From a virus: 64,000 nt of DNA. Every line of letters starts with the position of its first letter. Position 1 is the stretch's first letter. The notes under the pieces were generated by a model. It was not told the origin of the DNA. It searched no databases and saw only the letters and a list, made by a program, of their open reading frames with translations. Location: positions 29,818 through 93,817 of the IMG/VR virus record IMGVR_UViG_3300006077_000002; one strand, given 5' to 3'. This document shows positions 39,843 to 61,926 of this stretch, piece by piece. Made by a program: the position numbers and the translations under genes.

Positions 39843-40100
39843 ATGGAAATAATAAGCTATAGAGGTATGGAGTGTAGAGCCTTTTGGATTAAGGGTGCAA
39901 CTTGCTGGGTAGTAACTACAGTTGACCCTGAGGTAGAAATGAAAGAGTCTTTTTCTGAACTAACTGAATCATCTGTTGATACATATAAGATACCTCCCAG
40001 CTTCTTACATAGAAGATATTGGACTATAAATAGTATAGACATTTATAAAAATAAGGATGTCCAACGAATTACTGGGGTGCTAGGAGTACTTTATGGATAA
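39843..40100 (+). CDS. Small protein, family A, C-terminal LxxLYG tail
   Basis: 85 residues. ATG 39843 chosen for the GAGGATGGAA spacing. Pattern C-R-A-F-W-I-K-x-A-x-C-W-V-V is shared with 40614 (C-Y-A-K-W-I-E-x-A-x-C-W-V-L) and 40093 (C-H-A-V-W-V-T-K-A). Ends GVLGVLYG. First of seven genes joined head to tail by overlapping stops and starts. Function unknown. Confidence 0.6.
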   Translation: MEIISYRGMECRAFWIKGATCWVVTTVDPEVEMKESFSELTESSVDTYKIPPSFLHRRYWTINSIDIYKNKDVQRITGVLGVLYG

Positions 40101-40365
40101 GTTATTGGTTATTAGTAAGAAGAATATCTTATGCCACGCTGTTTGGGTAACTAAGGCTAAGTTATGGGTTATTTCTCCAGTAGAATATGAGAAATACCAA
40201 GACTTTGGGCACAGCAAACTTCGTCCTAGTATTGGAAGTGAGTACCCAGTCCTTGAAGATTTTATAGGTAGACCCTACGACACAGTTGATAAAAGGGATA
40301 TTTGTAAGGACAAAGAGTATTCAAAGTATGTTAGTTTAGGAGAGATTTATGGCGAAAATACTTAG
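40093..40365 (+). CDS. Small protein, family A, LGEIYG near the C-terminus
   Basis: 90 residues. Overlaps the previous gene by 8 nt. Shares the C-x-A-x-W strand pattern with its neighbours. SLGEIYGENT at the end; the SD and ATG of the next gene lie within that segment. Function unknown. Confidence 0.6.
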   Translation: MDKLLVISKKNILCHAVWVTKAKLWVISPVEYEKYQDFGHSKLRPSIGSEYPVLEDFIGRPYDTVDKRDICKDKEYSKYVSLGEIYGENT

Positions 40366-40621
40366 AGTTAAGGTGGTGAGACGGTACGACCAATTAAAAG
40401 CCAGCAATGAGGAAGTTTATCAGGCCGTAAAGAAAAGTAAAGATAACAATTACTACTTACTGCTTCTTGAAAATGGTCTTGGTTGGACTCTTGGAGAAAC
40501 TGAAGCTAAACATATACTGGGTGGAGGCATGAAAGAGTGGGTTGGGCGGAAAGTCTATAATGTTCCTGGGAGTAGGCTTGAGTTTTTATCACAAGCACCT
40601 TTGAAGGAAATTTATGGCTAG
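40349..40621 (+). CDS. Small protein, family B, C-terminal PLKEIYG
   Basis: 90 residues, overlaps its upstream neighbour by 17 nt. Family B pattern: V-x-R-Y-D-Q-L-K-A-S, E-V-Y-Q-A-V, Y-L-L-L-L-E, G-W-T/I-L, then V-x-x-x-x-Y-x-V-P. It recurs in the genes at 40876 and 41126. Looks like a small beta-barrel (SH3-like). Ends APLKEIYG. Confidence 0.6.
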   Translation: MAKILRVKVVRRYDQLKASNEEVYQAVKKSKDNNYYLLLLENGLGWTLGETEAKHILGGGMKEWVGRKVYNVPGSRLEFLSQAPLKEIYG

Positions 40622-40892
40622 TGTTATCTTGGTGTTATACAAAGATGTGGTATGCTATGCAAAATGGATTGAAACTGCAGAATGTTGGGTGTTAGTTACG
40701 AGAGACCCTGCAGAGATTAAAAAACTTGTATATTCTAGCTCTCAATTATCTGATAGAGATGGAGAAATCCACGACATCCCAGAGATATTTTTGAATAGGG
40801 CTTATTTTACATTAGCTAAGAAATATCTATTTGCATATAACACCATTAAAAAAGTTTACTGTTTGGAGGAAATTTATGATAGTACACATTAA
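40614..40892 (+). CDS. Small protein, family A, LEEIYD near the C-terminus
   Basis: 92 residues. Family A pattern as at 39843. ATG is embedded in the previous gene's LKEIYG codons (ATGGCTAG overlap). Near the end CLEEIYDSTH. Function unknown. Confidence 0.6.
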   Translation: MASVILVLYKDVVCYAKWIETAECWVLVTRDPAEIKKLVYSSSQLSDRDGEIHDIPEIFLNRAYFTLAKKYLFAYNTIKKVYCLEEIYDSTH

Positions 40893-41133
40893 AATAATCA
40901 AAAAATTTGACTCTTTACATAGGGGTACAGAAGTATTTAAAGCTGTAGCTCATGGAGGTGGAAGCCAATATATAGTATTACTTGATGGGACAGACTATAG
41001 AGGTTGGATATTATCATCATTTGATGCCTCTGGTTTTGGGGTGGAAGAATGGGGAGAGCTTGAAGTATACAGCGTACCAGCAGATTACATTGAAGTACTT
41101 AAAGAAAACCCTTTGAAGGAGATTTATGGTTAG
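40876..41133 (+). CDS. Small protein, family B, C-terminal PLKEIYG
   Basis: 85 residues from ATG 40876, which has GGAGGAAATTT before it; an upstream ATG at 40831 lacks a site. Family B pattern (F-D-S-L-H-R-G-T-E-V-F-K-A-V, Y-I-V-L-L-D, G-W-I-L). Ends NPLKEIYG. Confidence 0.6.
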   Translation: MIVHIKIIKKFDSLHRGTEVFKAVAHGGGSQYIVLLDGTDYRGWILSSFDASGFGVEEWGELEVYSVPADYIEVLKENPLKEIYG

Positions 41134-41383
41134 ATTAGTTAAAGACCACGACCAGCTTGAAGCTGGGCCAGAGGTATACAAAGAGATAGCTCAGGATGGA
41201 GAACATAGAAGTTTTATAATTCTTCTTGAGGATATTACAGATATAGGGTGGAGAATGCCTCCAAATCAAGCCAGAGAGCTTGGAGTTCCTGAATGGACAA
41301 ATAAGAGATGTTACTATGTTCCTGAGCACAAACTTCACTTCGTGGAACATGAACCACTTAGCAAAATTTACGAACTGCGATAA
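41126..41383 (+). CDS. Small protein, family B, LSKIYE near the C-terminus
   Basis: 85 residues. Family B pattern (H-D-Q-L-E-A-G-P-E-V-Y-K-E-I, F-I-I-L-L-E, G-W-R-M, C-Y-Y-V-P). Near the end PLSKIYELR, with no gene starting there, so the motif is kept without serving a downstream start. Confidence 0.6.
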   Translation: MVRLVKDHDQLEAGPEVYKEIAQDGEHRSFIILLEDITDIGWRMPPNQARELGVPEWTNKRCYYVPEHKLHFVEHEPLSKIYELR

Positions 41384-41401
41384 CTTTCTTTTAAGGTTTA
41401 T

Positions 41402-41421
41402 ACTAGGATTTATCACCTAGT
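41402..41421 (+). terminator. Hairpin after the family A/B cluster
   Basis: ACTAGG and CCTAGT form a perfect 6-bp stem with an 8-nt loop, 19 nt after the stop. No T run. Possible end of the upstream transcript. Confidence 0.35.
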
Positions 41422-41505
41422 ACCTTAAGAGTACCTTAATAGGAATAATTCTTAAGGTTTACCTCTATGTTTTTCCCTTCGGCCTAACTAATAGTATTAT
41501 ATGTT

Positions 41506-41589
41506 TATCTTGTGCAGATATGTTGGTAAAAGGAGAAAATATACAAGTTTTTACAGTTAAGCAGGTTTTAAGCAACATTTGGGTATAAT
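41506..41589 (+). promoter_or_regulatory. Composite rightward promoter (copy 3 of the shared motif)
   Basis: Upstream motif core at 41506-41526 (TATCTTGTGCAG...ATGTTGG), then a 29-nt insert relative to copy 2, GTTAAGCA at 41556-41563 and TTTAAGCA at 41567-41574 (11-bp period), 9 nt, TATAAT at 41584-41589. Likely drives the block beginning at 41630. No TTGACA -35 box. Confidence 0.75.
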
Positions 41590-41629
41590 ACGATTCCTCG
41601 GCCCAAAGGAAAAACAATAAGGATAACTT

Positions 41630-41902
41630 ATGGATGAACTTATGGTTACAGTTATAGATATGGGAGGTACTACCCTAGCGGTAAGACTACAAGTAAGAGC
41701 CCTACTAGCAGAGCATGGAGAAGCAGTCTATGAATCTTCTACTGTTTGGACAGAGGCATTCAAAGAGCCTACTAACCAATACATAGGTAGAAGTAATAGC
41801 AAGTGGATGGGAATTGGCTCTCATCATAAGGATGAAAGCATCCATGCCACAGAGTTCTTGAGACGCTTTGGCAAATTTAAACTAGGAGAAATTTATGGTT
41901 AG
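41630..41902 (+). CDS. Small protein with C-terminal LGEIYG
   Basis: 90 residues. First gene after the second composite promoter; AAGGATAACTT precedes the ATG. Central W-x-G-I-G-S segment; ends FKLGEIYG and overlaps the next start. Function unknown. Confidence 0.6.
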   Translation: MDELMVTVIDMGGTTLAVRLQVRALLAEHGEAVYESSTVWTEAFKEPTNQYIGRSNSKWMGIGSHHKDESIHATEFLRRFGKFKLGEIYG

Positions 41903-42056
41903 ACATACTATGGAAGCCGCAAGAATTATTGAGCAAAACTCAGATTCTAGCGGTAAGTACAAGGGACAGATTGTAACGGACTGTGTCCTTGCAAAAGTTA
42001 CCAAACAAGTTAAGGTAACCCATCACCTACGAGTAAAGGCTAAATATGGTAGTTAA
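41895..42056 (+). CDS. Small basic protein
   Basis: 53 residues. ATGGTTAG overlap with the previous gene; overlaps the next by 11 nt. Basic, helical. Not recognised. Confidence 0.5.
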   Translation: MVRHTMEAARIIEQNSDSSGKYKGQIVTDCVLAKVTKQVKVTHHLRVKAKYGS

Positions 42057-42186
42057 ATTTTTTGCCTTTGCCCTTTACATTGTTGTTCTTTATGCTCTTC
42101 TAAAAGAGTTTACAATAGAACAAGTTTTGCTTTTTGTAGCATTCACCGTATTATCAATTTTTCTAGGAGGAAAAAGTAATGAATAG
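42046..42186 (+). CDS. Small membrane protein
   Basis: 46 residues with two hydrophobic segments (FFAFALYIVVLYALL and VLLFVAFTVLSIFLGG), so probably two membrane helices. Overlaps both neighbours. Could be holin-like in shape, but it is far from the lysis gene. Confidence 0.55.
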   Translation: MVVKFFAFALYIVVLYALLKEFTIEQVLLFVAFTVLSIFLGGKSNE

Positions 42187-42442
42187 TCAAACACTACACC
42201 AAATGGTCTGCGAGAAGCGAGGGGAGATGAGCTACTCAAGAATGAAAAAATCACTTGAGAAAATTGTACATACACCTATGGTATCTCAAGCAGTAGAACA
42301 TAAGCGTATTGGTATTCACCGTCTTGGTGAAATTGCCAGCTCATATACAACCAGACAGTTGCACTTATTTGCCGTATGGTTAGAGAAAAACCCTACAGCA
42401 AACAAAGCGGAGATTGAGCTTCATATCAGCGGAGGTTTATAA
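42179..42442 (+). CDS. Unknown small protein
   Basis: 87 residues, helical, basic. GGAGGAAAAAGTA before the ATG. Not recognised. Confidence 0.5.
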   Translation: MNSQTLHQMVCEKRGEMSYSRMKKSLEKIVHTPMVSQAVEHKRIGIHRLGEIASSYTTRQLHLFAVWLEKNPTANKAEIELHISGGL

Positions 42443-42696
42443 TGGGAAATGAACAGCTAAATACTCTGATTTACTACCATGAGGGACACCTTATGAGAAA
42501 TCAAGGTACAACGGTATTTAAGTTCTTGGGTAATATGTATTGCTCTAACTTAAGACGTAAAAATAAATACTCATTTGATAGTATAACTTGGAAGAGTCGT
42601 AAGATATCTTTCTGGAATAAAATGAAGTTAGTATTTTCTGATAAGTATAAAAAGCTTACCAAAGATACTAAAAAGAGTATTGCAGCAGGTATTTAA
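42442..42696 (+). CDS. Unknown small basic protein
   Basis: 84 residues. TVFKFLGNMYCS resembles the strand in the 39340 protein. Very Lys-rich C-terminus. Followed by a structured gene-free stretch. Confidence 0.5.
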   Translation: MGNEQLNTLIYYHEGHLMRNQGTTVFKFLGNMYCSNLRRKNKYSFDSITWKSRKISFWNKMKLVFSDKYKKLTKDTKKSIAAGI

Positions 42697-42930
42697 CCAC
42701 ACAGCGGAGCCGAGGTCAGCGTTATACACGAGATTAGAAGACGTTGGATGTAGAATCCTCTAGCAATAGGGGTCCGTATCTCACTTATAAGGGTGCTGAC
42801 AGTGCCTAAGATGTGGTTTAATTCCACTAACCCTTACCACAAGAACCCTACCATTTAAACGGTGGTGTCATAGACCACGTAGGGTGGTTTCATTGAGTAG
42901 ACTTTGGTCTATTGAACGGAGGATAAAATT
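42697..42930 (+). ncRNA. Structured RNA region, at least six helices
   Basis: No gene. Helices seen: GTCAGC (42715-42720) with GCTGAC (42795-42800); inside it GAGAT (42730-42734) with ATCTC (42778-42782); inside that CCTCTA (42757-42762) with TAGGGG (42767-42772) around a GCAA tetraloop; ACCCTAC (42845-42851) with GTAGGGT (42879-42885), enclosing GTGGT/ACCAC; TAGAC (42898-42902) with GTCTA (42907-42911); and GTGG/CCAC near 42813-42827. CGGAGG follows before the ATG at 42931. It could be a leader or a free RNA. Confidence 0.55.
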
Positions 42931-43215
42931 ATGGCTAATCATAAAAGAGTAAAGGTACTAACCGATAGAGATGGATTTACTCAAGGATATATTTACAAGG
43001 CATATCCAGGGCATGACCCCAATGCAGATTGGGTAGTAATTATGGACAATCCAGATAATTTACAAGGTTGGTTTCTTACAGAAAACCTTGGGCATACATC
43101 ACTTACCTTAGATGACTTTGAGGAAAGTGATAGAGGTAAGAAAGGTTGGTATGTATCACCAGTATTTCTTGAAATAGTTTATGTAAATATGCTTAAAAAT
43201 ATTTACGAGGAGTAG
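42931..43215 (+). CDS. Small SH3-like protein, LKNIYE near the C-terminus
   Basis: 94 residues. V-K-V-L-T-D-R-D-G-F, Y-K-A-Y-P, W-V-V-I-M-D and G-W-F-L-T parallel family B (40349, 40876, 41126), so probably a distant member. Ends MLKNIYEE. The next gene starts 52 nt on, so the tail motif does not serve its start. Confidence 0.6.
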   Translation: MANHKRVKVLTDRDGFTQGYIYKAYPGHDPNADWVVIMDNPDNLQGWFLTENLGHTSLTLDDFEESDRGKKGWYVSPVFLEIVYVNMLKNIYEE

Positions 43216-43267
43216 TCTCTGCTTCGTACAGCTCATTTCGGTGAGTTATTAAAACAGAGGAGAACGA

Positions 43268-43423
43268 ATGTTAACAATCTATCTATTCATGGTACTAGCA
43301 TTTGCTGGAAAGTTTATCTTTGATGAACAACCAACAGCATTAACCAAACCACTAGCCTTGGAGGCTATTCAAGCAGGTTTACTATGGCCACTTACAGTAT
43401 ATCATATGCTGTACAAAGGCTAA
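43268..43423 (+). CDS. Small membrane-associated protein
   Basis: 51 residues with a hydrophobic N-terminus (MLTIYLFMVLAFAGKFIF) and a second hydrophobic patch (AGLLWPLTVYHML). AGAGGAGAACGA before the ATG; a short CTCA/TGAG hairpin lies upstream. Function unknown. Confidence 0.5.
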   Translation: MLTIYLFMVLAFAGKFIFDEQPTALTKPLALEAIQAGLLWPLTVYHMLYKG

Positions 43424-43426
43424 GTT

Positions 43427-43555
43427 ATGTGGAACGATGAAAATCGTTTCCATTGTCCCCATAAAGGGGAAGAGTTAGTGATGCCTCAAGAGAGGGATTA
43501 CAGAAATTTGTTTCTCTTTCTTGAGGACTTACAAAAATATGAGGGATGTTTATGA
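43427..43555 (+). CDS. Short peptide of 42 residues
   Basis: ATG 4 nt after the previous stop, overlapping the next gene by 4 nt. Aromatic-rich; two Cys. Not recognised. Confidence 0.4.
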   Translation: MWNDENRFHCPHKGEELVMPQERDYRNLFLFLEDLQKYEGCL

Positions 43556-44868: not shown

Positions 44869-44877
44869 GGAGAAACT

Positions 44878-44961
44878 ATGAAATTTTTAATTATCGGTTA
44901 TGTTGTTGTATACATTACAATAATTTATATTGTTGCACATTTTGTTATTAAGTTCTGGTAA
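44878..44961 (+). CDS. Single-span membrane peptide
   Basis: 27 residues, one hydrophobic span (FLIIGYVVVYITIIYIVAHF). AAGGAG lies 6 nt before the ATG, and the stop overlaps the next ATG (TAATG). Confidence 0.5.
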   Translation: MKFLIIGYVVVYITIIYIVAHFVIKFW

Positions 44962-45179
44962 TGGAACAGTTTAAAGTTGGGCAGTCATTAAGAAGAACTG
45001 GTCAAGGGAACTTAGATGCAAGCACATTTGCTGATGTTGAGGGGAGATTATACACTGTCTTTGAAGTACTTCCACTTACATACAAAGTAAAAAGTTATAA
45101 GGGAATCACTAAGTTCTCTAAAGACTATGCCCATAAAATATTTTCACCACAGATATCACCACTTACTAACATATACTAA
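44961..45179 (+). CDS. Small SH3-like protein with C-terminal PLTNIY
   Basis: 72 residues. F-K-V-G-Q-S-L-R-R-T-G, then Y-T-V-F-E-V and Y-K-V-K-S-Y look like a small beta barrel. Ends SPLTNIY with the stop directly after Tyr; the next gene starts 9 nt later with its own site (AAGGAGAAATT). Confidence 0.55.
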   Translation: MEQFKVGQSLRRTGQGNLDASTFADVEGRLYTVFEVLPLTYKVKSYKGITKFSKDYAHKIFSPQISPLTNIY

Positions 45180-45188
45180 GGAGAAATT

Positions 45189-45549: not shown

Positions 45550-45631
45550 TCCTAACCTTAATCTTAAAGATGCACTATTTACTTTGGCAGTAGTTACCTT
45601 TGGGTGGTTGGCATGGCTAACTCACTCATAG
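45542..45631 (+). CDS. Single-span membrane peptide
   Basis: 29 residues, one hydrophobic span (ALFTLAVVTFGWLAWL). Overlaps both neighbours (ATGACTAA with the upstream gene). Confidence 0.45.
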   Translation: MTNPNLNLKDALFTLAVVTFGWLAWLTHS

Positions 45632-45918
45632 AAGCATATGAAAAGCACACAGCTTTTCACATACTAACAAAGGAAATCACAGATGTTAAACTATTTGTAA
45701 AAAATCATAGGGAGTTTAAAAGATACACAAAAAGTCTTTTTAAAGATACACGTACTGACCCTTCAAGTGCTTGTGAAGAACACCTTAAAGATTACAAATT
45801 TTTTATAGCCTATAAAGAGACGGAGGATATCTATACATTTTATTTTTCAAACCTCACAAGAGGAGAGAGAGTAAACTTTGCTTCAAGTGTTTTGAATAGC
45901 ATCTATGACCAGTCCTAG
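45613..45918 (+). CDS. Unknown small protein with LNSIYD near the C-terminus
   Basis: 101 residues from ATG 45613. Helical then beta (FFIAYKETEDIYTFYFSNL). Ends VLNSIYDQS just before a terminator, so the motif is kept with no downstream start to serve. Confidence 0.55.
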   Translation: MANSLIEAYEKHTAFHILTKEITDVKLFVKNHREFKRYTKSLFKDTRTDPSSACEEHLKDYKFFIAYKETEDIYTFYFSNLTRGERVNFASSVLNSIYDQS

Positions 45919-45920
45919 AA

Positions 45921-45941
45921 CTACCCACCGTGGGTAGTTTT
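45921..45941 (+). terminator. Rho-independent terminator
   Basis: CTACCCA and TGGGTAG form a perfect 7-bp stem with a 3-nt loop, followed by TTTT. Ends the small-protein block. Confidence 0.75.
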
Positions 45942-46055
45942 ATGGAGCCCATCTCGGTGGGTTAGGTAGGAATAGCAGGCAGTAACCAACAAGTCAACTA
46001 CGGTAAGAACTTACATTTAATTAACATATTAAATTACTAAACAAAGGACCAAATT

Positions 46056-46736
46056 ATGGCAAAATCAATTAAAGTACTAACGTATAACAAAGCAGGATTC
46101 GACAAAGCAGTTAAGCACGCTCTCTCTCTTGGTGTAAAGAAAACTACTCTAACCTTTGATGCTAACAAATCAAGCCTTGTGGTAAAACTTGGAGCTACTC
46201 CAACTATGGCTAAGAGCCGTGCAGGTTACACTCCTAAAGAGAACCCGTATGCAGCAATTCTTGACCTTGCTGGTTTCCAGTCTTGTCAGCACCTTGATGA
46301 CTTGGCAGCAAACAAACCAGCAGTTAAAACTGTTGGTGTTCCAGAAGCAGTTTGTGCTCAGCGTGCAGATATAGCATTCGACCAAGGATTTGTAATCGGC
46401 TATGACGAAGGTGTAGATGATACACTTCCACAAAGCACTTTGAAGTGTGTTGAAGCTGAGGTACTTACTCAGAACCCAATCGTATGGGCAACAATGGGTA
46501 TTCCATTCTTCAAAGATAATGGGCTTGATATCGTTGAGAACGATGGTAAGATGTACACCATCAACACTACAACTAACACAGCGACAGAGTTCACTGCGGT
46601 AGAAGCTGCCAAGCAAGCTAAGAAAGACCTACTTGCTGGTGAAGATTCAATCTATACTAGCTTTGCTAAAAACTTTGAGCTTGTTGACATGCTTCGTCAT
46701 GCAAAAGTCCTTGTTGACGCTGATAGCGAAGACTAA
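46056..46736 (+). CDS. Unknown abundant-type protein with one copy of a repeated domain
   Basis: 226 residues. The C-terminal 80 residues (NPIVWATMGIPFF, D-G-K-M-Y-T-I-N, then A-x-x-A-K-x-D-L-L-A-G) recur twice in the next protein. The N-terminal 140 residues include AVCAQRADIAFDQGFVIGYD. Free-standing gene flanked by hairpins, with AAAGGACC before the ATG. Confidence 0.6.
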   Translation: MAKSIKVLTYNKAGFDKAVKHALSLGVKKTTLTFDANKSSLVVKLGATPTMAKSRAGYTPKENPYAAILDLAGFQSCQHLDDLAANKPAVKTVGVPEAVCAQRADIAFDQGFVIGYDEGVDDTLPQSTLKCVEAEVLTQNPIVWATMGIPFFKDNGLDIVENDGKMYTINTTTNTATEFTAVEAAKQAKKDLLAGEDSIYTSFAKNFELVDMLRHAKVLVDADSED

Positions 46737-46743
46737 GAGTTAC

Positions 46744-46758
46744 GGAGGGATGCCCTCC
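46744..46758 (+). terminator. GC hairpin after the 226-residue gene
   Basis: GGAGGG, loop ATG, CCCTCC: perfect 6-bp stem. No T run. Probably mRNA stability or partial termination. Confidence 0.45.
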
Positions 46759-46846
46759 ACAAATACCAATGGCCCTACATCATCAGCATCAGTCAACCTA
46801 AACCAATTAATTACAATAATTAATTACAACATATAAGGAAATTATT

Positions 46847-47488
46847 ATGGCAAACTCAATCCACTCTTTCGCAAAAGCACTAAATCTTACAGTAAAATCA
46901 GCAGACGTACAAGACATGAACCCAGTTATCTTTGCAACTCAGTTCGTTCCAAGTCTTCGTGGTTCAGATATCGTTAAAGATGGTGATACTGTTTACCGTA
47001 TCAACACAAAAGCAAACACTTCAACTGAAGTATCTGCATCAACACTTACAACTGAAGCAAAAGATGGTCTTGTAAAAGGTCGTGGTAACGATGCTTCTGT
47101 AAATGCTGCAATCAGCTTTGGTTTGGTTAAGAAGCTTGTCCTTAAAAAGAACAAAGCAGAACCAACTACAGGATGTAAAACTTCAGTAAAAGATATGGCT
47201 GACCTTCTTAGTCTAGTTGTAACTGATATCAAAGTTGCAGTTCAGAACGAAATCATCTTCCAAACTCAAGGCATCAAGCAAATTGCTGGTCTTGATATTC
47301 ACGATGGTCAGTACTTCAAGCTTGATACAGTTAGCAACACAGCTACACTTATCAATGCTGAAGCAATCGCAGAAAATGCTAAGGCTGATTTCCTTAAGGG
47401 GAAAGTAACAGACCTTACAAAGTTCTGTGAAAACTATTCACTTATCTCAAGTCTTACACTTGAAGTTAAGCCTACTGCAGCAGCGTAG
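46847..47488 (+). CDS. Unknown protein with two copies of the repeated domain
   Basis: 213 residues. Copy 1 about residues 22-107 (NPVIFATQFVPSLRG, DGDTVYRINTKANTSTEV), copy 2 about 128-205 (NEIIFQTQGIKQIAG, DGQYFKLDTVSNTATLI). The same domain ends the 46056 protein. Function unknown. AAGGAAATTATT before the ATG. Confidence 0.6.
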   Translation: MANSIHSFAKALNLTVKSADVQDMNPVIFATQFVPSLRGSDIVKDGDTVYRINTKANTSTEVSASTLTTEAKDGLVKGRGNDASVNAAISFGLVKKLVLKKNKAEPTTGCKTSVKDMADLLSLVVTDIKVAVQNEIIFQTQGIKQIAGLDIHDGQYFKLDTVSNTATLINAEAIAENAKADFLKGKVTDLTKFCENYSLISSLTLEVKPTAAA

Positions 47489-49169: not shown

Positions 49170-50933
49170 ATGTCAACAGTAAAAAACAAAATTAAGAATG
49201 TAGACTTAACAGTTTACACACCATTGGACAAGCCATTAGCAGAAACAACAGTAGTAGTATTTGGTCATGGAATTATCAAAGACCATTCTATTGGTACAAT
49301 CTCCCGTGTAGGACTTACAGATACCGCTTTGGTTTATGTAAAAGTAGGACATGTTACTTACTCAGTCCCTAAAGATATGCTATACACTCGTAAGCCTGTG
49401 GCAGGAGATGTTTCAAAAGCTATCTCTACTTTAAAAGTTCCTGCCAATTTACGTCGTGCCGCATATTTCACAAAGAACACAAAGATGTTTATCTATGGGC
49501 ATAAAGACTACAAAGATGGAACACCATGTGTAGTTGATGCTTATATGCAACCAACAAGTAAGTTTATTGCAGTTATGGTAAACAAAAAGGTGCAGTATAT
49601 TGAGCCAGCAAATCTATACATCATAGACCCTCAGTATGTTACTCCAATTCCATTGTTCTCTGAACTGAAAGAGCCCACAGATTTGCAAGAGTATATGGCA
49701 AAACTCCTTTATGCAGATAACATGGATGATTCAATCACTCTTGCGTTAGAAGATGTAGACCTTAGCAAGTATGATATGATTTCAAGTCAGTCAGGTTCTA
49801 AATGGGCAGCGATTATTCCTAAAGGTGCCAAAGGTCCTATGCCAGTACTTATGGCTCACTGTGATATTCAAATGAATGTCAAGCACCCAACAGAAAAGAA
49901 CCTTACATATGATGAGAAGCTTAGTAAGTTTAACTCTCCAACTGGTCTTGGTGCTGATGACCGTGCAGGATTGTTCGTTATCAATCGTGCTCTAAATATG
50001 CACGAAGGGAAGTTTATTGCTATCTTCTTTGATGAAGAAGAGGTTGGCTGTAAAGGCTCTCGTAACTTTGTTAAGAGTAAGGACTTTAAAGAGAAGATTG
50101 ACCCTATGGCTAGTCTTTATATCTCTATTGACCGTACTCGTTCAACTACTGGTGGTAAGACTGTAGCAACTTATGGGCATGATAACAAAGCAATTCTTGG
50201 TATGTTTAAAGATAAGCTTAAACGTCCTGAAGTTCGTGGTTCAAGCACTGACTGTAAAGTTCTAAGTGCAGAGTCTGTTGAAATTTCAAAAGATAATATG
50301 GGTATTGCTTGTGTTAACTTCTCTTGTGGTTATCAGTTTGAGCATACATCTCGTGAAACATTATACTGGAAAGAGCTTCTTGAGTGTGCTATTGATATCT
50401 GTGCTATGCCAGAGAAAATGCCTACACTTTGGAAGTTACAGTATCGTGCAGAAAAGCCAGCTGTGTCTTATGGTGGATATTATGGTCGTGGAGCCAATAC
50501 AACTACCAAAGCTAAGACAAAACCTAAAGCGAAAGTTACATCAACATTGTACGCTGATGACTATATCTTAGTTAATGGTGACTACTATGACAGTGATGAT
50601 GTAGAAGCACTACTCAAGCAGTTTAAGCATAAGATGGGTAGAGAATATGTTGTAGGTGATGCTGGGCCCTATACTCCGAAACGCAACGACTTCGTACGTC
50701 TATCCACCAGTGTTTCAATCGGAGGAATTTATGGTGGACAAAGACTTGATAAGGCTACTTACATTATGCTCGATTCCAATGTTTGGATTGTTCACAGCGT
50801 GGACCATACAACTGCTTCAGTAAGTCTTAGAACTGATGATGCATCTTATGACGCTGTGAATATCCCTATGGAGCTTCTTGAAGCAGTAACACAGAGCGAT
50901 ATGCTCGTATCACAAAATTTATTGGAGAACTAA
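49170..50933 (+). CDS. Zinc metallopeptidase of the M20/M28/M42 type with extra terminal domains
   Basis: 587 residues. The peptidase core is about 180-430. Metal ligands are in family order: His in LMAHCDIQ (about 230), Asp in LGADDRAG (about 268), the Glu pair in FFDEEEVGCKGS (about 290), Asp in YISIDRTR (about 322) and His in FEHTSRETLYW (about 391). The first 150 and last 120 residues are extra; the end (SIGGIYGGQRLDKATYIML, VNIPMELLEAV) looks like a small beta barrel. The substrate is unknown. A peptidase of this class is unusual in a phage. Confidence 0.75.
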   Translation: MSTVKNKIKNVDLTVYTPLDKPLAETTVVVFGHGIIKDHSIGTISRVGLTDTALVYVKVGHVTYSVPKDMLYTRKPVAGDVSKAISTLKVPANLRRAAYFTKNTKMFIYGHKDYKDGTPCVVDAYMQPTSKFIAVMVNKKVQYIEPANLYIIDPQYVTPIPLFSELKEPTDLQEYMAKLLYADNMDDSITLALEDVDLSKYDMISSQSGSKWAAIIPKGAKGPMPVLMAHCDIQMNVKHPTEKNLTYDEKLSKFNSPTGLGADDRAGLFVINRALNMHEGKFIAIFFDEEEVGCKGSRNFVKSKDFKEKIDPMASLYISIDRTRSTTGGKTVATYGHDNKAILGMFKDKLKRPEVRGSSTDCKVLSAESVEISKDNMGIACVNFSCGYQFEHTSRETLYWKELLECAIDICAMPEKMPTLWKLQYRAEKPAVSYGGYYGRGANTTTKAKTKPKAKVTSTLYADDYILVNGDYYDSDDVEALLKQFKHKMGREYVVGDAGPYTPKRNDFVRLSTSVSIGGIYGGQRLDKATYIMLDSNVWIVHSVDHTTASVSLRTDDASYDAVNIPMELLEAVTQSDMLVSQNLLEN

Positions 50934-51786: not shown

Positions 51787-53016
51787 ATGAAAAAATTCAC
51801 AGGACGATTTAGTCCATCACCAACTGGTAAGCTTCATTTAGGAAGCCTTCGTACTGCACTTATCTCTCATATTATCAGTGATACTTTCGTCCTGAGAATT
51901 GAAGATACAGATGCAAAGCGTTCAACTGTGGAGTCAGAGCAAGAAATCATTGAGTCATTCAAGTGGCTTGGTATTAAAAATGATGGGGAAATTGTTAGAC
52001 AATCTGACCAAGAGAAAGGTGGAGTATATTCTGACTTAGCAAATAAACTTGTTGAGGCTGGATATGCCTACCGTTGTAACTGTACTGTAGATTATCTGCG
52101 AGCTATGAAAACTCAGCAGATTAAAAATAAGGAGCGTCGCCTTGGGTATAATGGAAAATGCCGTGAGTCAGGAAATACTGAGGGAGTCATTAGACTTAAT
52201 GCACGGAAAATCGGAGAAGAAAGAGGTGATATCTTCTTTCGCTTTGAAGATGATGTTTTTGGTACTCGTCGTGTTGATTTTAGAGATGTTCCTGATACAG
52301 TTCTTACTAGAGCAAATGGTACAGCAACATATATACTCGCCAATACATTCGATGATATGTTGGCAGGAGTGGACTATGTAGCTCGTGGTGCTGACATCAT
52401 TACTCAAACAGCAACACAAATTGCACTTCGTGAGGCTATTCACTTGGCAACAGGAATCCCTAACCCTGAAGTTCACTATTCACACTTACCGTTAATTCTT
52501 GGTGCAGAGAATCAAAAGCTTAGTAAGCGTAATGAAGATACAAAGTCTATCTTAGACTATCGTGCTGAAGGATTTACTCGTGAAGCAATCATTCAGTTTG
52601 TATTAAGCTTAGGTAACAAATCAATCTCTACAAGTCATGCAATGACAGTGGAGGAGATTAAACAAGCCTATAATCGTACATCATTGAGACGTAACGACAC
52701 AGCATTTCTTGAGCATAAACTCAAACACTTAAATGCAATGCATCTTAAGCGAATGGATACCTCAAAACTTGTGGCAGAAGTTGAAGAAGTCTATGGTGTA
52801 GCCCTTAGTACAAAATTAGTTGGAGCATTTAAGTACCGTGTAAGTACTATGCTTGAACTAAAAGAGAAATGTGAGCAGTTTGAGGGATTAGTTGCAGCAA
52901 AGCCAGAGGCATTGTCTGCACTTGAAGCTTCAGGATTTTCAGTAGATGGATGTAAAGCATTCAGAACAGATGCGTTGGGAGGAATGAGAACACCTCCACT
53001 TAAGGAATTATTATGA
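51787..53016 (+). CDS. gltX: Glutamyl-tRNA synthetase
   Basis: 409 residues, shorter than the usual 465-500. Class I signatures are intact: GRFSPSPTGKLHLGSLRTAL with the HIGH-type HLGS at 17-20, and KLSKR near 243-247. A possible zinc site is CNC...YNGKCR. The LRIEDTD motif near 37-43 also fits. The segment after KLSKR (SILDYRAEGFTREAIIQFVL) is of GluRS rather than GluQ-RS type; the anticodon-binding region is shortened. It attaches glutamate to tRNA. Ends PPLKELL overlapping the next start. All catalytic motifs look intact. Confidence 0.88.
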   Translation: MKKFTGRFSPSPTGKLHLGSLRTALISHIISDTFVLRIEDTDAKRSTVESEQEIIESFKWLGIKNDGEIVRQSDQEKGGVYSDLANKLVEAGYAYRCNCTVDYLRAMKTQQIKNKERRLGYNGKCRESGNTEGVIRLNARKIGEERGDIFFRFEDDVFGTRRVDFRDVPDTVLTRANGTATYILANTFDDMLAGVDYVARGADIITQTATQIALREAIHLATGIPNPEVHYSHLPLILGAENQKLSKRNEDTKSILDYRAEGFTREAIIQFVLSLGNKSISTSHAMTVEEIKQAYNRTSLRRNDTAFLEHKLKHLNAMHLKRMDTSKLVAEVEEVYGVALSTKLVGAFKYRVSTMLELKEKCEQFEGLVAAKPEALSALEASGFSVDGCKAFRTDALGGMRTPPLKELL

Positions 53017-53504
53017 GCACACCAACAAGCCTAGTGTATAAAAGTCGCCGTCTTCCAGTAAGACTATTGGAAGAGGATTGGGAGGCTACCACCACCTCAA
53101 AAGTTAAGCAGGAGATGTTGAGACAGAAAATCTTTAAAGCTCCTGAAACAGGTACATTATTGGTAAGTGGTACCGCAGGACCTATCATTAACCAGTTGTA
53201 TCAAATGGGTCGCAAATGTGCTGGACTATCTTTGATTGAGTATTTTGAGTCAAAGTTACAGAGCGAAGGAGAAAAACCTCCTGTCAGCGAAGTAATCTTT
53301 TTGTATGGTGTTGGTAATGAGCCTGCAAAAAGTGGTGAGTATGGCGGAAAGTTAATATCAGGACTTATGGAGTACTGTAAAAACAGAGGATACTTATTAG
53401 TTATTGAAACTCATTTATCTCCTACCAATTTTGAAGTTCGTTATGGTATCAACATAACAACTAAAATCTCTATTAAGTTAAAGGCTGAAGATGCATGGCT
53501 CTAA
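53013..53504 (+). CDS. Unknown protein, ATPase-like half
   Basis: 163 residues. The second half (SEVIFLYGVGNEP, ISGLMEYCKNRGYLLVIETHLS) resembles the Walker B to sensor part of AAA+ or RecA-like proteins, but there is no Walker A lysine (only GTAGPI). It may be a degenerate ATPase or helicase loader. Overlaps the GluRS stop (ATGA). Confidence 0.4.
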   Translation: MSTPTSLVYKSRRLPVRLLEEDWEATTTSKVKQEMLRQKIFKAPETGTLLVSGTAGPIINQLYQMGRKCAGLSLIEYFESKLQSEGEKPPVSEVIFLYGVGNEPAKSGEYGGKLISGLMEYCKNRGYLLVIETHLSPTNFEVRYGINITTKISIKLKAEDAWL

Positions 53505-53751
53505 AAGAACACTGATACTGAATAGAGGTATTGCCAGCACCTTTTACGATGCTAATGATATTCGTAGAAGCATCCTGGCATATAAGTTTATTCATGGACT
53601 TAAAAAAGGTGCTGGTATACTTTATCATCATGCTACTGGAGGTAGCACAATACTAACTGCGGAGGAAGTCCTATCATTACTGCGTAAGAAAGACCCACAA
53701 GTTACTTTGTTTGGTAAATCAGACTCTGTACTATCAGGTATATACAAATGA
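53491..53751 (+). CDS. Small protein with C-terminal LSGIYK
   Basis: 86 residues, basic. Overlaps both neighbours. Ends SVLSGIYK. The weak Shine-Dalgarno near the next ATG does not explain the tail motif. Confidence 0.55.
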   Translation: MHGSKRTLILNRGIASTFYDANDIRRSILAYKFIHGLKKGAGILYHHATGGSTILTAEEVLSLLRKKDPQVTLFGKSDSVLSGIYK

Positions 53752-54059
53752 AACCACTATACACTCTAACTATCTTAAGAGGATGGAGAGAGGCTGAAGA
53801 GTACTATAAAAAGTACCCAGAAGAGAAGACCTTTGAGGCTTATACCTTTATAATTAACCAAAGGCTTTATAATTTAGGGGCATTTAGATGTGCTGACCGT
53901 ATAAAGTATGGTACACAAAGAATGTACAACAGTGTCATCAAATCTTATAAAGAAGGGTTACGCAGTAATTCTGAGATACTTATTGGAGGCAAGAGAGTTG
54001 CTCTTATTGTAGATAAGAGTAGAAGTACTAAAAATATTCTAAGGAAATTATATGAATAA
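53748..54059 (+). CDS. Small protein with C-terminal LRKLYE
   Basis: 103 residues, basic, Tyr-rich (EEYYKKYPEEK, INQRLYNLG). Overlaps both neighbours. Ends NILRKLYE. Confidence 0.55.
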   Translation: MKPLYTLTILRGWREAEEYYKKYPEEKTFEAYTFIINQRLYNLGAFRCADRIKYGTQRMYNSVIKSYKEGLRSNSEILIGGKRVALIVDKSRSTKNILRKLYE

Positions 54060-55407
54060 ACTACGTGGAGGAATCCAGTTAGTAAATCCCCCAGCAGAAT
54101 TATTGGAGAGATTAACTTACCCCAACCCCTTTGAACCTGACCAAGAATTTCTTGGGTATAGAGATGATGGTGCTGGTAAAGTTACTGTTCCAAGAAAATC
54201 TATTGATATCTCTCCTGATATTGTTGATGTTACAACCAGCCCTATCAGTATAGGTATCAAAAGTAGCTTCTCGTTAAGAGATTATCAAATCAAACCTGTA
54301 AATAAAATTACTAGTCTCTTAACTGGAGGCTATAATCAATGCCTTCTAACTGCACGAACTGGGTCTGGAAAATCATTCAGTCTTGGGTTCATCATAAAGG
54401 ATATTGGAGAACGTACCCTAATTTTGGCACACTTATCAATGCTTACAACTCAGATGGCTGATGAGTTATCAGAGAATCTTGATGCTGATGTTCGTATCAT
54501 TGATAAAGATAACCAAGAGTTAGGTGATGTTAATATCTGTACCTTTCAGTATCTACATGCCAACCCTATGCTAACCCTACAGTTAGCCAAAGAGATAGGC
54601 TTTGTAGTTGTTGATGAGGCAGAGAATATGCTTAGTCCAAGTAGACTTAATGTATTCTATTCGCTTACTCCAAAGTATCAACTACTTATGACAGCAACTC
54701 CTAGCCGTGACCTTGTTGGTAGAACACCAATGATTACAGAACTAATTGGAGATGCCATTGTAGTTATGGAGCCTACCAATGAAATTGTAACAACACCCGC
54801 AATGTTTGATTACAGACATCTAAAATTCCATGCACCAACTAACAAGATGATGTATAAAGGAGCGTTGACTAGATTCTTTTTGCAAAGTTCAATACCTGCT
54901 GATATTGTAGGTGTAGTAGGCATGCTGTTAGAGTATGAGGGTTGTGTATGGGTTATTATAGACAGTCTTAAATTCCAAGATAAAATGGTGGAGTTGTTTG
55001 CCGCTCAGGGGGTAGGAGCAGAGGTAATTCGTGGAGCTACCTCAACCAAAGAACGGAAACGTATTCTTGCTAATGTTGAGAGTGGAGATTGTAGAGTACT
55101 ACTTGCATCTGCACCTCTATCTGCTGGTATATCAATGCCAGAACTTGCTCATGCATTTAGAGTTATGCCTCATAGTTCAGGACATGAGCTTCTTACACAG
55201 CAAAGAGGTCGTCTTAAACGGTACTCAGAGTTCAAAGACTACCAACCTACTATCTGGTTTGACTATGCCATAGAGGGTTCTCTGGCATGGACAGGCAAGA
55301 AGAGATTCAAAAGTTACAAAGAGGAAGAAGGATTTCTATTCGGAAGCTTAAGTACTATTAAAGCAAAAGTTAAGGAGTTATTAGATGACAAACAAAGAAA
55401 AAATTGA
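54052..55407 (+). CDS. SF2 DNA/RNA helicase
   Basis: 451 residues. Motif I LLTARTGSGKS near 95-105, motif II VVVDEAEN near 183, motif III LMTATPSR near 210, motif VI QQRGRLKR near 385. Reads as a two-domain superfamily 2 helicase of the UvsW/RecG-like phage type, though shorter. Probably acts in replication or recombination. Overlaps its neighbours. Confidence 0.85.
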   Translation: MNKLRGGIQLVNPPAELLERLTYPNPFEPDQEFLGYRDDGAGKVTVPRKSIDISPDIVDVTTSPISIGIKSSFSLRDYQIKPVNKITSLLTGGYNQCLLTARTGSGKSFSLGFIIKDIGERTLILAHLSMLTTQMADELSENLDADVRIIDKDNQELGDVNICTFQYLHANPMLTLQLAKEIGFVVVDEAENMLSPSRLNVFYSLTPKYQLLMTATPSRDLVGRTPMITELIGDAIVVMEPTNEIVTTPAMFDYRHLKFHAPTNKMMYKGALTRFFLQSSIPADIVGVVGMLLEYEGCVWVIIDSLKFQDKMVELFAAQGVGAEVIRGATSTKERKRILANVESGDCRVLLASAPLSAGISMPELAHAFRVMPHSSGHELLTQQRGRLKRYSEFKDYQPTIWFDYAIEGSLAWTGKKRFKSYKEEEGFLFGSLSTIKAKVKELLDDKQRKN

Positions 55408-55654
55408 TAAGTTAAGTAAACAGGACTATGTTCTTCGTGGGTATAGTGAATGGTACCTAGAGCTATATCAAAATGCTGGAGGAAATTGGAAAGATTATAA
55501 TTCTGACATAGCTGCAGGAGCTAGAAGACGTTACCAAAGCTATAAAGAGATTGGTAATGGTTTAGTATATGCTAGACAAAGGCTTTCAAAATACATGAAA
55601 AGTATTGTGTCAGTACACAAATCACCATTAAAGGGAATTTATGAGAGTAAGTAA
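55385..55654 (+). CDS. Small protein with LKGIYE near the C-terminus
   Basis: 89 residues, helical and basic. Overlaps the helicase by 23 nt. Ends PLKGIYESK, in whose codons the next gene's ribosome-binding site and ATG lie. Confidence 0.6.
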   Translation: MTNKEKIDKLSKQDYVLRGYSEWYLELYQNAGGNWKDYNSDIAAGARRRYQSYKEIGNGLVYARQRLSKYMKSIVSVHKSPLKGIYESK

Positions 55655-55928
55655 GTTTAAGAAAGGGCAAAAAGCTCGGGTAAAAAGTCTGGAGAAATTA
55701 AAAAGAGATGCTGAAGAAATTAAAAGTTCAGGAGCATTTCGTATGAAAGACAGAATGCACATTGTAGACCGTATGTTTAGCCTGTGTGGGCAAGTAGTAA
55801 CTATTAAAACAATAGTAGCTCCTGAAGACCCTCAAGGGTATTACTTAATTGATGAAGACACTGCAGGATATAGTTGGTCTGACAGTTTATTGGAAGACCT
55901 TGCACCTTTGAAGGAGATTTATGGCTAG
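55641..55928 (+). CDS. Mib/HERC2-like SH3 small protein with C-terminal LKEIYG
   Basis: 95 residues. Clear pattern: K-G-Q-K-A-R-V-K-S, F-x-x-x-x-H-I-V-D-R-M, C-G-Q-V-V-T-I-K-T-I, Y-Y-L-I-D-E-D-x-x-x-Y-S-W-S-D-S-L-L-E. This is a common phage SH3-like fold. Ends APLKEIYG. Confidence 0.7.
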   Translation: MRVSKFKKGQKARVKSLEKLKRDAEEIKSSGAFRMKDRMHIVDRMFSLCGQVVTIKTIVAPEDPQGYYLIDEDTAGYSWSDSLLEDLAPLKEIYG

Positions 55929-56142: not shown

Positions 56143-56150
56143 GGAACATT

Positions 56151-56687: not shown

Positions 56688-56911
56688 GAAAGATTAATTA
56701 CAATGAACGAGCAGTAAAAGCAATCATTCAATTACTTACAGAACAAAATGCAGTATTTGGAATGCATGAGGAGAGTATTGAAATTGAGGCAACAAAAAGA
56801 AATGAGGACATGTTATTTAAAGAGCTCAATAGAATTGTGGCTGGCACTAAATATATGGTGCAAAAAGATATCAAGTCCGTAATCATTACAATATTTAATG
56901 GAAGTGTGTGA
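56684..56911 (+). CDS. Unknown small protein
   Basis: 75 residues. Overlaps the transglycosylase and the next gene. Lacks the C-terminal motif. Not recognised. Confidence 0.5.
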   Translation: MRKINYNERAVKAIIQLLTEQNAVFGMHEESIEIEATKRNEDMLFKELNRIVAGTKYMVQKDIKSVIITIFNGSV

Positions 56912-57210
56912 TGAGAAAGCAGGGTTCAAAAGTACAGGTAATTCATCGAAGTGAGTTATTTAGCAGAACTAGCAGTGCTGTAATGATTAGTGGTGTGAAA
57001 TGTCTCAATATCAGAGAAAGTTACCAAATGTTTGTACCATCTATGGATAGGATGCTTGGTAAAGTTGCAACCATAACTTTAGCTACTACGTATCATGGTG
57101 TGCCAGTGTATGCTATTGAAGGCTCAAGTGATTGGTGGTCAGAACAGATGTTTGCACAGAACACTAGACTTCGTTCTTTATACGCTCGTAAAGGAACTAT
57201 GGATGACTAG
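56911..57210 (+). CDS. Mib/HERC2-like SH3 small protein with internal LRSLYA
   Basis: 99 residues from ATG 56911, in the overlap TGATG. V-Q-V-I-H-R-S-E-L-F, M-D-R-M-L-G-K-V-A-T-I, Y-x-I-E-G-S-S-D-W-W-S-E-Q-M-F give the SH3 pattern. LRSLYA is ten residues from the end. Confidence 0.6.
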   Translation: MRKQGSKVQVIHRSELFSRTSSAVMISGVKCLNIRESYQMFVPSMDRMLGKVATITLATTYHGVPVYAIEGSSDWWSEQMFAQNTRLRSLYARKGTMDD

Positions 57211-57442
57211 AACAATTATAAGCCGAAAGGTTTGGGAAGAAAAACAACGAGATGAGGACACTTGTGGGTGTGGTTATCATATGCCTAGAGCCATGAAGCG
57301 TTGGGCTGATACTACACATGAGGTAAAAAGTTCCAGAGAGATTATGAAGTCTACTGTATTTAAGTTTAGCGACATAGATAGCTGGGAATTTTGTGCGTGT
57401 CTATTAGTGGATGCATCAATACTAAAGGGGATTTATGATTAG
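57203..57442 (+). CDS. Small protein with C-terminal LKGIYD
   Basis: 79 residues from ATG 57203. Cys cluster CGCG near 22 may bind a metal. Ends SILKGIYD; the polymerase start lies in these codons. Confidence 0.55.
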   Translation: MTRTIISRKVWEEKQRDEDTCGCGYHMPRAMKRWADTTHEVKSSREIMKSTVFKFSDIDSWEFCACLLVDASILKGIYD

Positions 57443-59984: not shown

Positions 59985-60202
59985 GCAACTATCCATATGT
60001 GAATAATTATGTGATTGAGATTGAACACTATGGTAAATATCAAATGACTACAGATGCTCCACCAGAAGCTATAAGACATGCATATAACTTGATGCACATG
60101 AATGCTGATGAAGATGAAGACATAATAGACTTTTTGACTAGAGTGTTGGTAGATGCAGGATTTAAATTTGGGCCACTAAATATTAAATATATAGAATTTT
60201 AG
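59972..60202 (+). CDS. Small protein, apparent ATC start codon
   Basis: 76 residues if begun at ATC 59972, which has AAAGGAG 5 nt upstream and overlaps the polymerase end, the arrangement used throughout this operon. The first GTG (59999) has no ribosome-binding site nearby. Acidic, N-D-E-D-E-D-I-I-D. Function unknown. Confidence 0.5.
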   Translation: MEELSNYPYVNNYVIEIEHYGKYQMTTDAPPEAIRHAYNLMHMNADEDEDIIDFLTRVLVDAGFKFGPLNIKYIEF

Positions 60203-60210
60203 GAGAAATT

Positions 60211-60585
60211 ATGCTTAGCAATTTACATATTATTGAAATACCTACAGATGCATATTCTGAAGTAGCAAAGTTAGTTAATTTTCTGGAAGAAACACCAGAC
60301 AATGTCAATGAAGAGATGGTTCGTGATAGTATTTCTGCTTCTACTAGAAGTGGGAAGCTACTTAATGGGATGCACCATCTCTATTATAAACCATCATTAG
60401 TTCAGAAGAATACTGCACCAAAAATTGAGGCAGGAGGAGATGGCTATTGGCTATGGAATGACCCTCCAAACCCTAACTATACTAAGGTTATGTTTCAAAA
60501 AGCATTAGAGATAATGGAGAAATCAGCAGACACTAAAGACTTCTTATCCATACTTCAATCGCCTATAAGAACATTATATGCATAG
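60211..60585 (+). CDS. Small protein with C-terminal IRTLYA
   Basis: 124 residues. An early I-x-x-P-T-D-A-Y strand and a late G-Y-W-L-W-N segment recur loosely in the next protein. Ends SPIRTLYA; no Shine-Dalgarno lies in those codons. AGGAGAAATT before the ATG. Confidence 0.55.
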   Translation: MLSNLHIIEIPTDAYSEVAKLVNFLEETPDNVNEEMVRDSISASTRSGKLLNGMHHLYYKPSLVQKNTAPKIEAGGDGYWLWNDPPNPNYTKVMFQKALEIMEKSADTKDFLSILQSPIRTLYA

Positions 60586-60922
60586 AGGATACTTTATTAC
60601 AGGAGTTCCAAAAAATCTAAAAGCTTTTATGAACTTGTTAAAAGGGCTTGGAGATGATGGATATACAGATAAAGAGTTGTGCAAAGAGGCTTTAGGAGAT
60701 TTGGAAGGAGAATATATGGTAGTCTATGATGATACCACAGGCTCTGATGAATGCTATTGGCCTTGGAGTACCGACACTTGGGAAGAGTATGAGGACTCTT
60801 ATGAATTTGATTCTACAGAATACAAACTTAAACATATAGACTATTATCAGGTGTGCAGAAAGCACAACATTAAAATCCCTAAGAAGTATCGTAGAAAGAT
60901 ACTATCAGAGATATATTTCTAG
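60578..60922 (+). CDS. Small protein with C-terminal LSEIYF
   Basis: 114 residues, partly resembling the preceding protein (C-Y-W-P-W-S). Acidic, ends RKILSEIYF. The next gene starts 13 nt later with its own site (AGGAGAAAAAAG). Confidence 0.55.
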   Translation: MHRGYFITGVPKNLKAFMNLLKGLGDDGYTDKELCKEALGDLEGEYMVVYDDTTGSDECYWPWSTDTWEEYEDSYEFDSTEYKLKHIDYYQVCRKHNIKIPKKYRRKILSEIYF

Positions 60923-60935
60923 GAGAAAAAAGAAT

Positions 60936-61610
60936 ATGACCACTAAACAATTAAAAATAACTTCGGCTAACTTAGCTGAAGACTACCCACTAACTTCTCA
61001 ATTTGTGAATGGTATCTATGGCTTAGCTAAAAAGCTTAGCTACCAGATAGCAACAAACAAAGCTGTAGATAGTCATGATGACTTCTTTCAAATCATGTTG
61101 GTTGAAGCCTGTAGGCTTGAGCCAAAGTTTGACCCTGATAGAGGGACAAGTTTCTACTCATTCATTAACAGACCTTTAAGAGCAAAGATGTTTAAAGAGT
61201 TCATTGATGTTGACCGTGGCGGAGATAACTACAAGAAGATTAAAGAGTTCATCAAAGGGTACCAAGCAGATAAACATATATTTCCATCAGTGGAAATTAT
61301 CAGTGATGAGCTTGATATCCCATCCGATGTAGTTCGCCTTGATTATTATGGCAAGACACAAACAATCAGTGTTGATGATTGTGATGACTTGTTATTATCT
61401 GACGAGGTTGATGGGGTGAACCCAATGGACTATGTCAAATACCTTGAGCCTATAGAGCAGTTGGTAATCAGCTTACTCTATTCTGAAATACCTGAGGATA
61501 TGGCTGATGTATTTACGAGACAGTACTTAATGATTACCCAAGAAACTTTGGAAGAAATCAGAGACATCTCTCTAACCAAACTTAAGGGGTTAATAGATGC
61601 AGAGGATTAA
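60936..61610 (+). CDS. Phage sigma factor (sigma70-like)
   Basis: 224 residues. Region 2: DDFFQIMLVEACRLEPKFDP, then RGTSFYSFINRPLRAKMFKE. Region 3: FPSVEIISDELDIPSDVV. Region 4: EPIEQLVISLLYSEIPEDMA with a helix-turn-helix ending LTKLKGLI. All three parts fit a small sigma70-family protein without region 1. It should direct host RNA polymerase to phage promoters, perhaps those of the late genes. It lies in the replication operon. Confidence 0.75.
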   Translation: MTTKQLKITSANLAEDYPLTSQFVNGIYGLAKKLSYQIATNKAVDSHDDFFQIMLVEACRLEPKFDPDRGTSFYSFINRPLRAKMFKEFIDVDRGGDNYKKIKEFIKGYQADKHIFPSVEIISDELDIPSDVVRLDYYGKTQTISVDDCDDLLLSDEVDGVNPMDYVKYLEPIEQLVISLLYSEIPEDMADVFTRQYLMITQETLEEIRDISLTKLKGLIDAED

Positions 61611-61926
61611 TGACAAGGAAGTTTATAAACTCCTCAAAAAGGATATACAAATTAGACTGAATAACAAAGAGGAGGTAAAAGAATTCTTAAAAGCTATGTA
61701 TGAAATTGTAGCAGAAAACGGTGGTACTACCTTTGGCTCTGCCGATGGAAATAGTTATGGACGTAAGTTTATAGAGGATATAAGTGACAGAGAGTATCCA
61801 ACTTACATCTATAGAACAGACAGAGCACTATTTCAGACAGCAAGAGGAAACGACCACAACTTTACACTGCCAGAAATTAAAAGTAAATTTGCAGTAGCAA
61901 AACCATTGGGAGGTTTATATGATTAA
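61597..61926 (+). CDS. Small protein with C-terminal LGGLYD
   Basis: 109 residues. Overlaps the sigma gene by 14 nt. Ends KPLGGLYD, in whose codons thyX starts (GGGAGG upstream of the ATG). Confidence 0.55.
   Translation: MQRINDKEVYKLLKKDIQIRLNNKEEVKEFLKAMYEIVAENGGTTFGSADGNSYGRKFIEDISDREYPTYIYRTDRALFQTARGNDHNFTLPEIKSKFAVAKPLGGLYD

Follow-up and report, generated by a model that had tools for sequence, protein, structure and literature searches.

Short C-terminal tails on small proteins of an uncultured tailed phage are conserved as protein sequence and probably serve as docking motifs

Why should many small proteins of one phage, most of them unlike each other in sequence, end in nearly the same few residues? 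The question is raised by a 64,000-nucleotide stretch of viral DNA (hereafter the window), bases 29818-93817 of the uncultured virus record IMGVR_UViG_3300006077_000002 (93,817 bases; G000), where a preliminary description had noticed an L-x-x-I/L-Y tail at the ends of 19 small genes between 39843 and 61926 and had proposed that selection acts on the protein and not merely on the ribosome-binding site of the next gene. Genes were called by script on the whole record, giving 131 genes, and gene coordinates without further mark are positions in the window. The gene content points to a tailed phage: there are genes for a tape measure protein, a terminase, a ligase, a DnaB-like helicase, a ribonucleotide reductase and a sigma-region-2 protein, and the DNA polymerase is of the A family, with a distant likeness to Schitoviridae polymerases. 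We find that conservation of the tail is at the amino-acid level and is not that of a ribosome-binding site, and docking of the tail proteins on one common partner appears to be the most plausible reading of what it does.

All 19 genes exist and end where they had been said to end, and the motif is far more frequent than expected. The pattern [LIVM]xx[ILVM]Y matches among the final 15 residues in 23 of the 131 genes, against 3-4 expected: about 3.0 from the rate in the interior of the same proteins (p ~3e-14), and a mean of 3.9 (maximum 11) over 2000 trials with shuffled proteins. The matches cluster 0-4 residues from the C-terminus. Two were dropped from the set, one at 3457-3678 of the record, in which 10 residues trail the motif, and one at window 29206-29580 (VLSKLYHD), whose homologues keep the same C-terminus as part of that protein family. 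This leaves 21 proteins, the 19 of the window plus two encoded far to the left in the record, all of them non-structural, encoded on the plus strand and 72-124 amino acids (aa) long; none of the minus-strand structural proteins of the record carries the tail. They are given below with the motif, the residues that follow it and its relation to the next gene; A and B denote two groups of paralogues, and overlap with a start codon is in register unless said otherwise.

39843-40100, plus strand: 85 aa, group B; LGVLY at 40080-40094, then G; overlaps the next ATG.
40093-40365, plus strand: 90 aa, group B; LGEIY at 40336-40350, then GENT; overlaps the next ATG.
40349-40621, plus strand: 90 aa, group A; PLKEIY, motif at 40601-40615, then G; overlaps the next ATG.
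40614-40892, plus strand: 92 aa, group B; LEEIY at 40863-40877, then DSTH; overlaps the next ATG.
40876-41133, plus strand: 85 aa, group A; PLKEIY, motif at 41113-41127, then G; overlaps the next ATG.
41126-41383, plus strand: 85 aa, group A; PLSKIY, motif at 41357-41371, then ELR; next gene 246 nucleotides (nt) on; Tyr encoded by TAC.
41630-41902, plus strand: 90 aa; LGEIY at 41882-41896, then G; overlaps the next ATG.
42931-43215, plus strand: 94 aa, group A; LKNIY at 43192-43206, then EE; no overlapping start; Tyr TAC.
44961-45179, plus strand: 72 aa; PLTNIY at the very end, motif at 45162-45176; next ATG 9 nt past the stop, with its Shine-Dalgarno sequence also past the stop; Tyr TAC.
45613-45918, plus strand: 101 aa; LNSIY at 45892-45906, then DQS; no following gene.
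53491-53751, plus strand: 86 aa; LSGIY at 53731-53745, then K; next start out of register, with a 4-nt overlap; Tyr TAC.
53748-54059, plus strand: 103 aa; LRKLY at 54039-54053, then E; overlaps the ATG of the helicase gene.
55385-55654, plus strand: 89 aa; PLKGIY, motif at 55628-55642, then ESK; overlaps the next ATG.
55641-55928, plus strand: 95 aa, phrog_17705 match to residue 87; PLKEIY, motif at 55908-55922, then G; overlaps the next ATG.
56911-57210, plus strand: 99 aa, phrog_7488 match up to the tail; LRSLY at 57169-57183, then ARKGTMDD; Shine-Dalgarno sequence of the next gene past the tail; Tyr TAC.
57203-57442, plus strand: 79 aa, Cys-rich; LKGIY at 57422-57436, then D; overlaps the ATG of the DNA polymerase gene.
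60211-60585, plus strand: 124 aa; PIRTLY, motif at 60565-60579, then A; overlaps the next ATG, with a weak Shine-Dalgarno sequence.
60578-60922, plus strand: 114 aa; LSEIY at 60902-60916, then F; next ATG 13 nt past the stop, with a separate Shine-Dalgarno sequence.
61597-61926, plus strand: 109 aa; PLGGLY, motif at 61906-61920, then D; overlaps the ATG of a ThyX-like gene.
Record 11534-11776 (outside the window), plus strand: tail KPLKEVYG.
Record 11769-12023 (outside the window), plus strand: tail SPIKDIYEK.

Two of these differ in detail from what had been described: the gene ending at 60585, listed among those where no gene starts or where the start has a separate or weak site, does overlap the next ATG, and the tail of the gene ending at 57210 is present, but its motif ends 8 residues before the C-terminus. 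Directly 3' of the tail gene 45613-45918, at 45919-45945, lies a hairpin-like inverted repeat with a T run (AACTACCCACCGTGGGTAGTTTTAT), a likely terminator. A glutamyl-tRNA-synthetase-like protein (51787-53016; phrog_35649) has a tail-like end, PPLKELL, and its last codons also hold the ribosome-binding site of the next gene. An IKE(I/V)LS C-terminus is kept in the DNA polymerases of G000 and of two more distant relatives, G001 and G006, and similar short ends occur in several other related polymerases; IKE(I/V)L ends, being a feature of that polymerase family, were not counted as tails.

Is the tail confined to this one genome? Relatives were gathered through alignment scans with the polymerase, the major capsid protein and the terminase, which led to a clade of uncultured phages. 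One member, G003 (43.6 kb), has a capsid protein 81% and a terminase 75% identical to those of G000, and its early region is a 6-kb piece adjoining its terminase. Eight of its 20 early small genes encode tails, seven of them with at most four trailing residues (p ~1e-9) and the eighth if six are allowed: EPDVLSDIYNL, IDVKEIYNSF, EPDVLKEIYDTL, VDISGIYDC, MDLDKLYGEFTDV, VCITDIYKDF, FGLDEIYSL and VNMNKLYNSF. These proteins include two paralogue pairs, and none is similar in sequence to any tail protein of G000. Neither G001 (polymerase 39% identical to that of G000) nor G006 (terminase 44%) has a tail cluster, and for background, 80 further loci with related polymerases show the motif in 17 of 2345 genes and T4 shows it in 3 of 269. 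Scans with a single polymerase or GltX sequence yielded no close relative of G000, a TerL scan over bacterial and archaeal genomes gave no match, tblastn searches with the tail proteins of G000 and G003 returned no match among 50,697 phage records, and exact and relaxed patterns of the tail DNA recovered from IMG/VR, among the matches listed, chance matches and G003 only; the collections scanned may lack records very close to the window's own. In the open-access literature no description of such a tail was found.

Taken over the 29 tails of G000 and G003, the consensus is (S/N/D)-(P/V/I)-L-x-x-(I/L)-Y-(G/D/E/N) followed by 0-8 residues, with the L-x-x-[I/L]-Y spacing in most of them and 0-4 residues after the Tyr in 27, the remaining two having 6 and 8. 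Because the L, I and Y columns served to pick the set, independent evidence comes from the other columns and the codons only. Pro stands immediately N-terminal to the Leu in 10 of the 29 (p ~1e-8), an acidic residue is found at +2 in 14/29 and at +5 in 11/28, and a basic one at +1 in 13/29.

The codons separate the constraint on the protein from that on the start signal. Of the 29 tails, 16 are coupled, with the start codon of the following gene overlapping them in register, and 13 are uncoupled. The Tyr is TAT in all 16 coupled tails, since its AT belongs to the next ATG, and a Shine-Dalgarno sequence lies inside the motif codons in 14 of them. Not one of the 13 uncoupled tails has a Shine-Dalgarno sequence there, and 8 of them encode the Tyr by TAC, yet L/I/V/M-x-x-I/L-Y is intact in all, written with varied Ile/Leu codons (ATT, ATA, ATC, TTA, CTA) and with mostly polar residues at x-x (S, N, T, D, K, R, G, E). 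This pattern bears on the simplest alternative, in which the tail is a by-product of translational coupling, the standard phage ribosome-binding site AAGGAGATTTATG yielding KEIY(G) when read in the upstream frame. The coupled tails are what such an account would produce, and AAGGAGATTTATGG, found three times in the genome, has one copy outside any tail, before the gene at record position 9713. However, the same 8-nt overlap gives the motif in just 2 of 84 control genes, compared with 11 of 21 in G000 (the ends of the other 10 being, for example, KETHD, RLTHD and MVKDG); a ribosome-binding site demands neither the Leu nor a Pro at -1; and in G003 several tails persist with 62-119 nt before the next gene. 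It had been foreseen that a tail of purely nucleotide origin would be lost wherever the downstream gene was absent and would be conserved only at the nucleotide level; instead, the G003 tails persist without an overlapping downstream start, and the codons show amino-acid conservation. Since uncoupled tails exist, coupling is refuted as the sole cause, and we regard it as very improbable as an explanation of the motif, although it still accounts for K, E and G at x-x. In LKEIYG, the K, E and G are therefore overprint of a start signal; the motif of the protein itself is L-x-x-I-Y, and its free positions accommodate the signal that starts the following gene. The proposed selection on the protein is thus borne out: the tail serves both purposes, with the constraint on the protein coming first.

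How related are the proteins that carry the tail? They had been called unrelated-looking, which holds only in part. Seven of the 19 in the window fall into paralogue group A (40349, 40876, 41126, 42931) or group B (39843, 40093, 40614), but for the others the tail is the sole similarity detectable by BLAST. Matches between non-paralogous tail proteins span the tail only, as between those at 70166 and 85458 of the G000 record, or those at 2632 and 3142 of G003 (11 residues). Pfam and PHROG searches gave weak matches only, and the PHROG matches of 55641, 56911 and G003 3142, to families of unknown function, each stop just short of the tail; a profile search of 33 records for tail-less members of phrog_7488 or phrog_10169 gave no family match and was hence uninformative. 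An AlphaFold2 model of 40349 built with its paralogues has a beta-rich body, and residues 83-90, the tail, are the sole stretch with a predicted local distance difference test (pLDDT) score below 50, which suggests a flexible, disordered end of a beta-rich domain in the one body modelled. Foldseek searches with a tail-protein body pointed to SH3-like folds, none at E <= 0.001.

Taken together, we think it probable that the tail is a C-terminal short linear docking motif on about 21 small accessory proteins of G000 and eight of G003. The Leu, Ile/Leu and Tyr (i, i+3, i+4) would line up on one side of a short, amphipathic helical turn at a flexible end and would plug into a hydrophobic pocket on a partner common to all; many small effector proteins could in this way be brought to a single hub or compete for it. 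The polar x-x positions are free and, where a downstream gene lies close, serve to write its Shine-Dalgarno sequence, with TAT giving the AT of its ATG. A wider proposal, whose chances we put slightly below even, is a phage-wide docking code in which one peptide directs at least 20 early proteins to a single hub, moves as a tag between unrelated bodies and has merged with the signal that starts the following gene. The best available guess for the hub, a ring or subunit linked to replication or transcription, phage- or host-encoded, with a pocket like that of the T4 clamp, is speculative and rather doubtful; candidates range from a diverged phage ring to a host protein or a different kind of partner. 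Several observations weigh against docking. No partner was found; the DNA polymerase (C-terminus EIKEILSKS), ligase and sigma factor of this phage lack the tail, unlike in T4; profiles PF09116 and PF02916 revealed no T4-type clamp in G000 at E <= 1, though a diverged or host clamp could escape them; tail-bearing genomes number two, with an early region of just 6 kb in G003; and the model of 40349 is shallow, built from four sequences with a mean pLDDT of 64.5. Two candidates for the hub were considered and found no support, namely 46056 (AlphaFold2 mean pLDDT 37) and, as a clamp, the 280-aa protein 50935. The former (46056-46736) and its neighbour 46847-47488 are paralogues with a strong coding signal and an internal repeat module (DGxxYxIxTxTNTAT...AKxDLLxG), without a family match.

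Docking has to be weighed against other explanations. The tail proteins might be diverged members of one or a few old families, the tail being their slowest-changing end and perhaps a structural or dimer element. The two paralogue groups of G000, the two pairs of G003 and weak SH3-like hints for several bodies agree with common descent, but about a dozen bodies have no detectable mutual similarity beyond the tail, sizes range from 72 to 124 aa, one body is Cys-rich, and the sole model has the tail disordered. Common descent concerns origin and is therefore compatible with docking as function; it accounts for the paralogue groups, not for the dozen tail-only bodies, and as a full explanation we find it unlikely. 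Somewhat less likely still is a degradation tag that marks early proteins for host ClpXP or Lon, or for a phage ClpP-like protein, and so clears them after the early phase. The tail proteins are indeed non-structural, and the genome holds, at record 8780-9478 inside the replication gene cluster, what reads from its sequence as a ClpP/S49-like serine protease gene; its homologue occurs in G001, which has no tails. Known C-terminal degrons are recognised by their free carboxylate; in the tail, the distance from Tyr to carboxylate varies from 0 to 8 residues, which makes a degron less likely.

Two further accounts turn on the gene junctions themselves. Many tails sit at a stop/start junction, where a nascent peptide that slows the ribosome near the stop could aid re-initiation on the next gene, but tails also occur without a close downstream gene (45918, 41383, G003 4788) and lie at varying distances from the stop, so that we give such an effect very little credence, no more than coupling. 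Near-identical 24-nt copies at 40598-40621 and 41110-41133, with an almost identical end at 55928, might instead mark a recombination boundary by which small genes are shuffled as cassettes; however, the uncoupled tails vary at synonymous positions and the tails of G003 differ in DNA, so that DNA identity is not what is kept, and this is to us the least probable of the alternatives.

For the majority of small early phage proteins no function is known. If docking is true, the tail would give about 29 of them one common address, and might expose a hub of host takeover or of replication control. The tail is also a clear case of the same letters encoding both a protein motif and the start of translation, and its uncoupled copies allow the two constraints to be told apart. 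Other features were noted in these genomes. The window holds at 49170-50933, in a replication-type region, a 587-aa protein with an M28/M42-like peptidase domain, and to its left, at record 1701-2426, lies a gene for a 241-aa reverse-transcriptase-like protein with YADD, whose homologue in G006 (88491-89399) is 33% identical. The DNA polymerase gene of G006 (62767-66994) is split by about 1.7 kb holding a 315-aa open reading frame, probably an intron or intein with its own gene.

Among known systems, overlapping ribosome-binding sites and starts in translational coupling resemble the coupled tails, which hold an AAGGAG-like sequence and the next ATG, and differ in that 13 of the 29 tails are uncoupled and lack a Shine-Dalgarno sequence. 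C-terminal degrons (ssrA-like, MuA-like) are likewise short C-terminal peptides on several proteins, but the tail has no fixed register to the carboxylate and no sequence similarity to them. The PIP box (QxxLxxFF) and the bacterial clamp-binding motif (QL[S/D]LF) are short hydrophobic-aromatic peptides that dock many proteins on one ring, and in this they are like the tail; the tail, however, has no Gln and has Ile, not an aromatic residue, before the Tyr, and the spacing of the bacterial motif is unlike its own. The closest precedent comes from T4, in whose record the polymerase gp43 ends in SLDFLFG, the late sigma factor gp55 in SLDFLYEAND and the co-activator gp33 in TLDFLL; these ends are described as highly similar, freely interchangeable sliding-clamp-binding C-termini (PMC2988020; PMC7892883). 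The tail described here differs from them in being carried by small accessory proteins and not by the polymerase, ligase or sigma factor, perhaps in being less consistently acidic, and in being written, in half of the cases, over the start site of the next gene. Because the polymerase lacks it, no clamp profile matches and binding is only putative, we do not file it as a T4-type clamp-binding motif, a membership that is not supported. Yet both are single short motifs common to otherwise different proteins, C-terminal with few trailing residues and with the hydrophobic spacing L-x-x-L-[F/Y/L], and the tail may act like the clamp-binding ends of T4.

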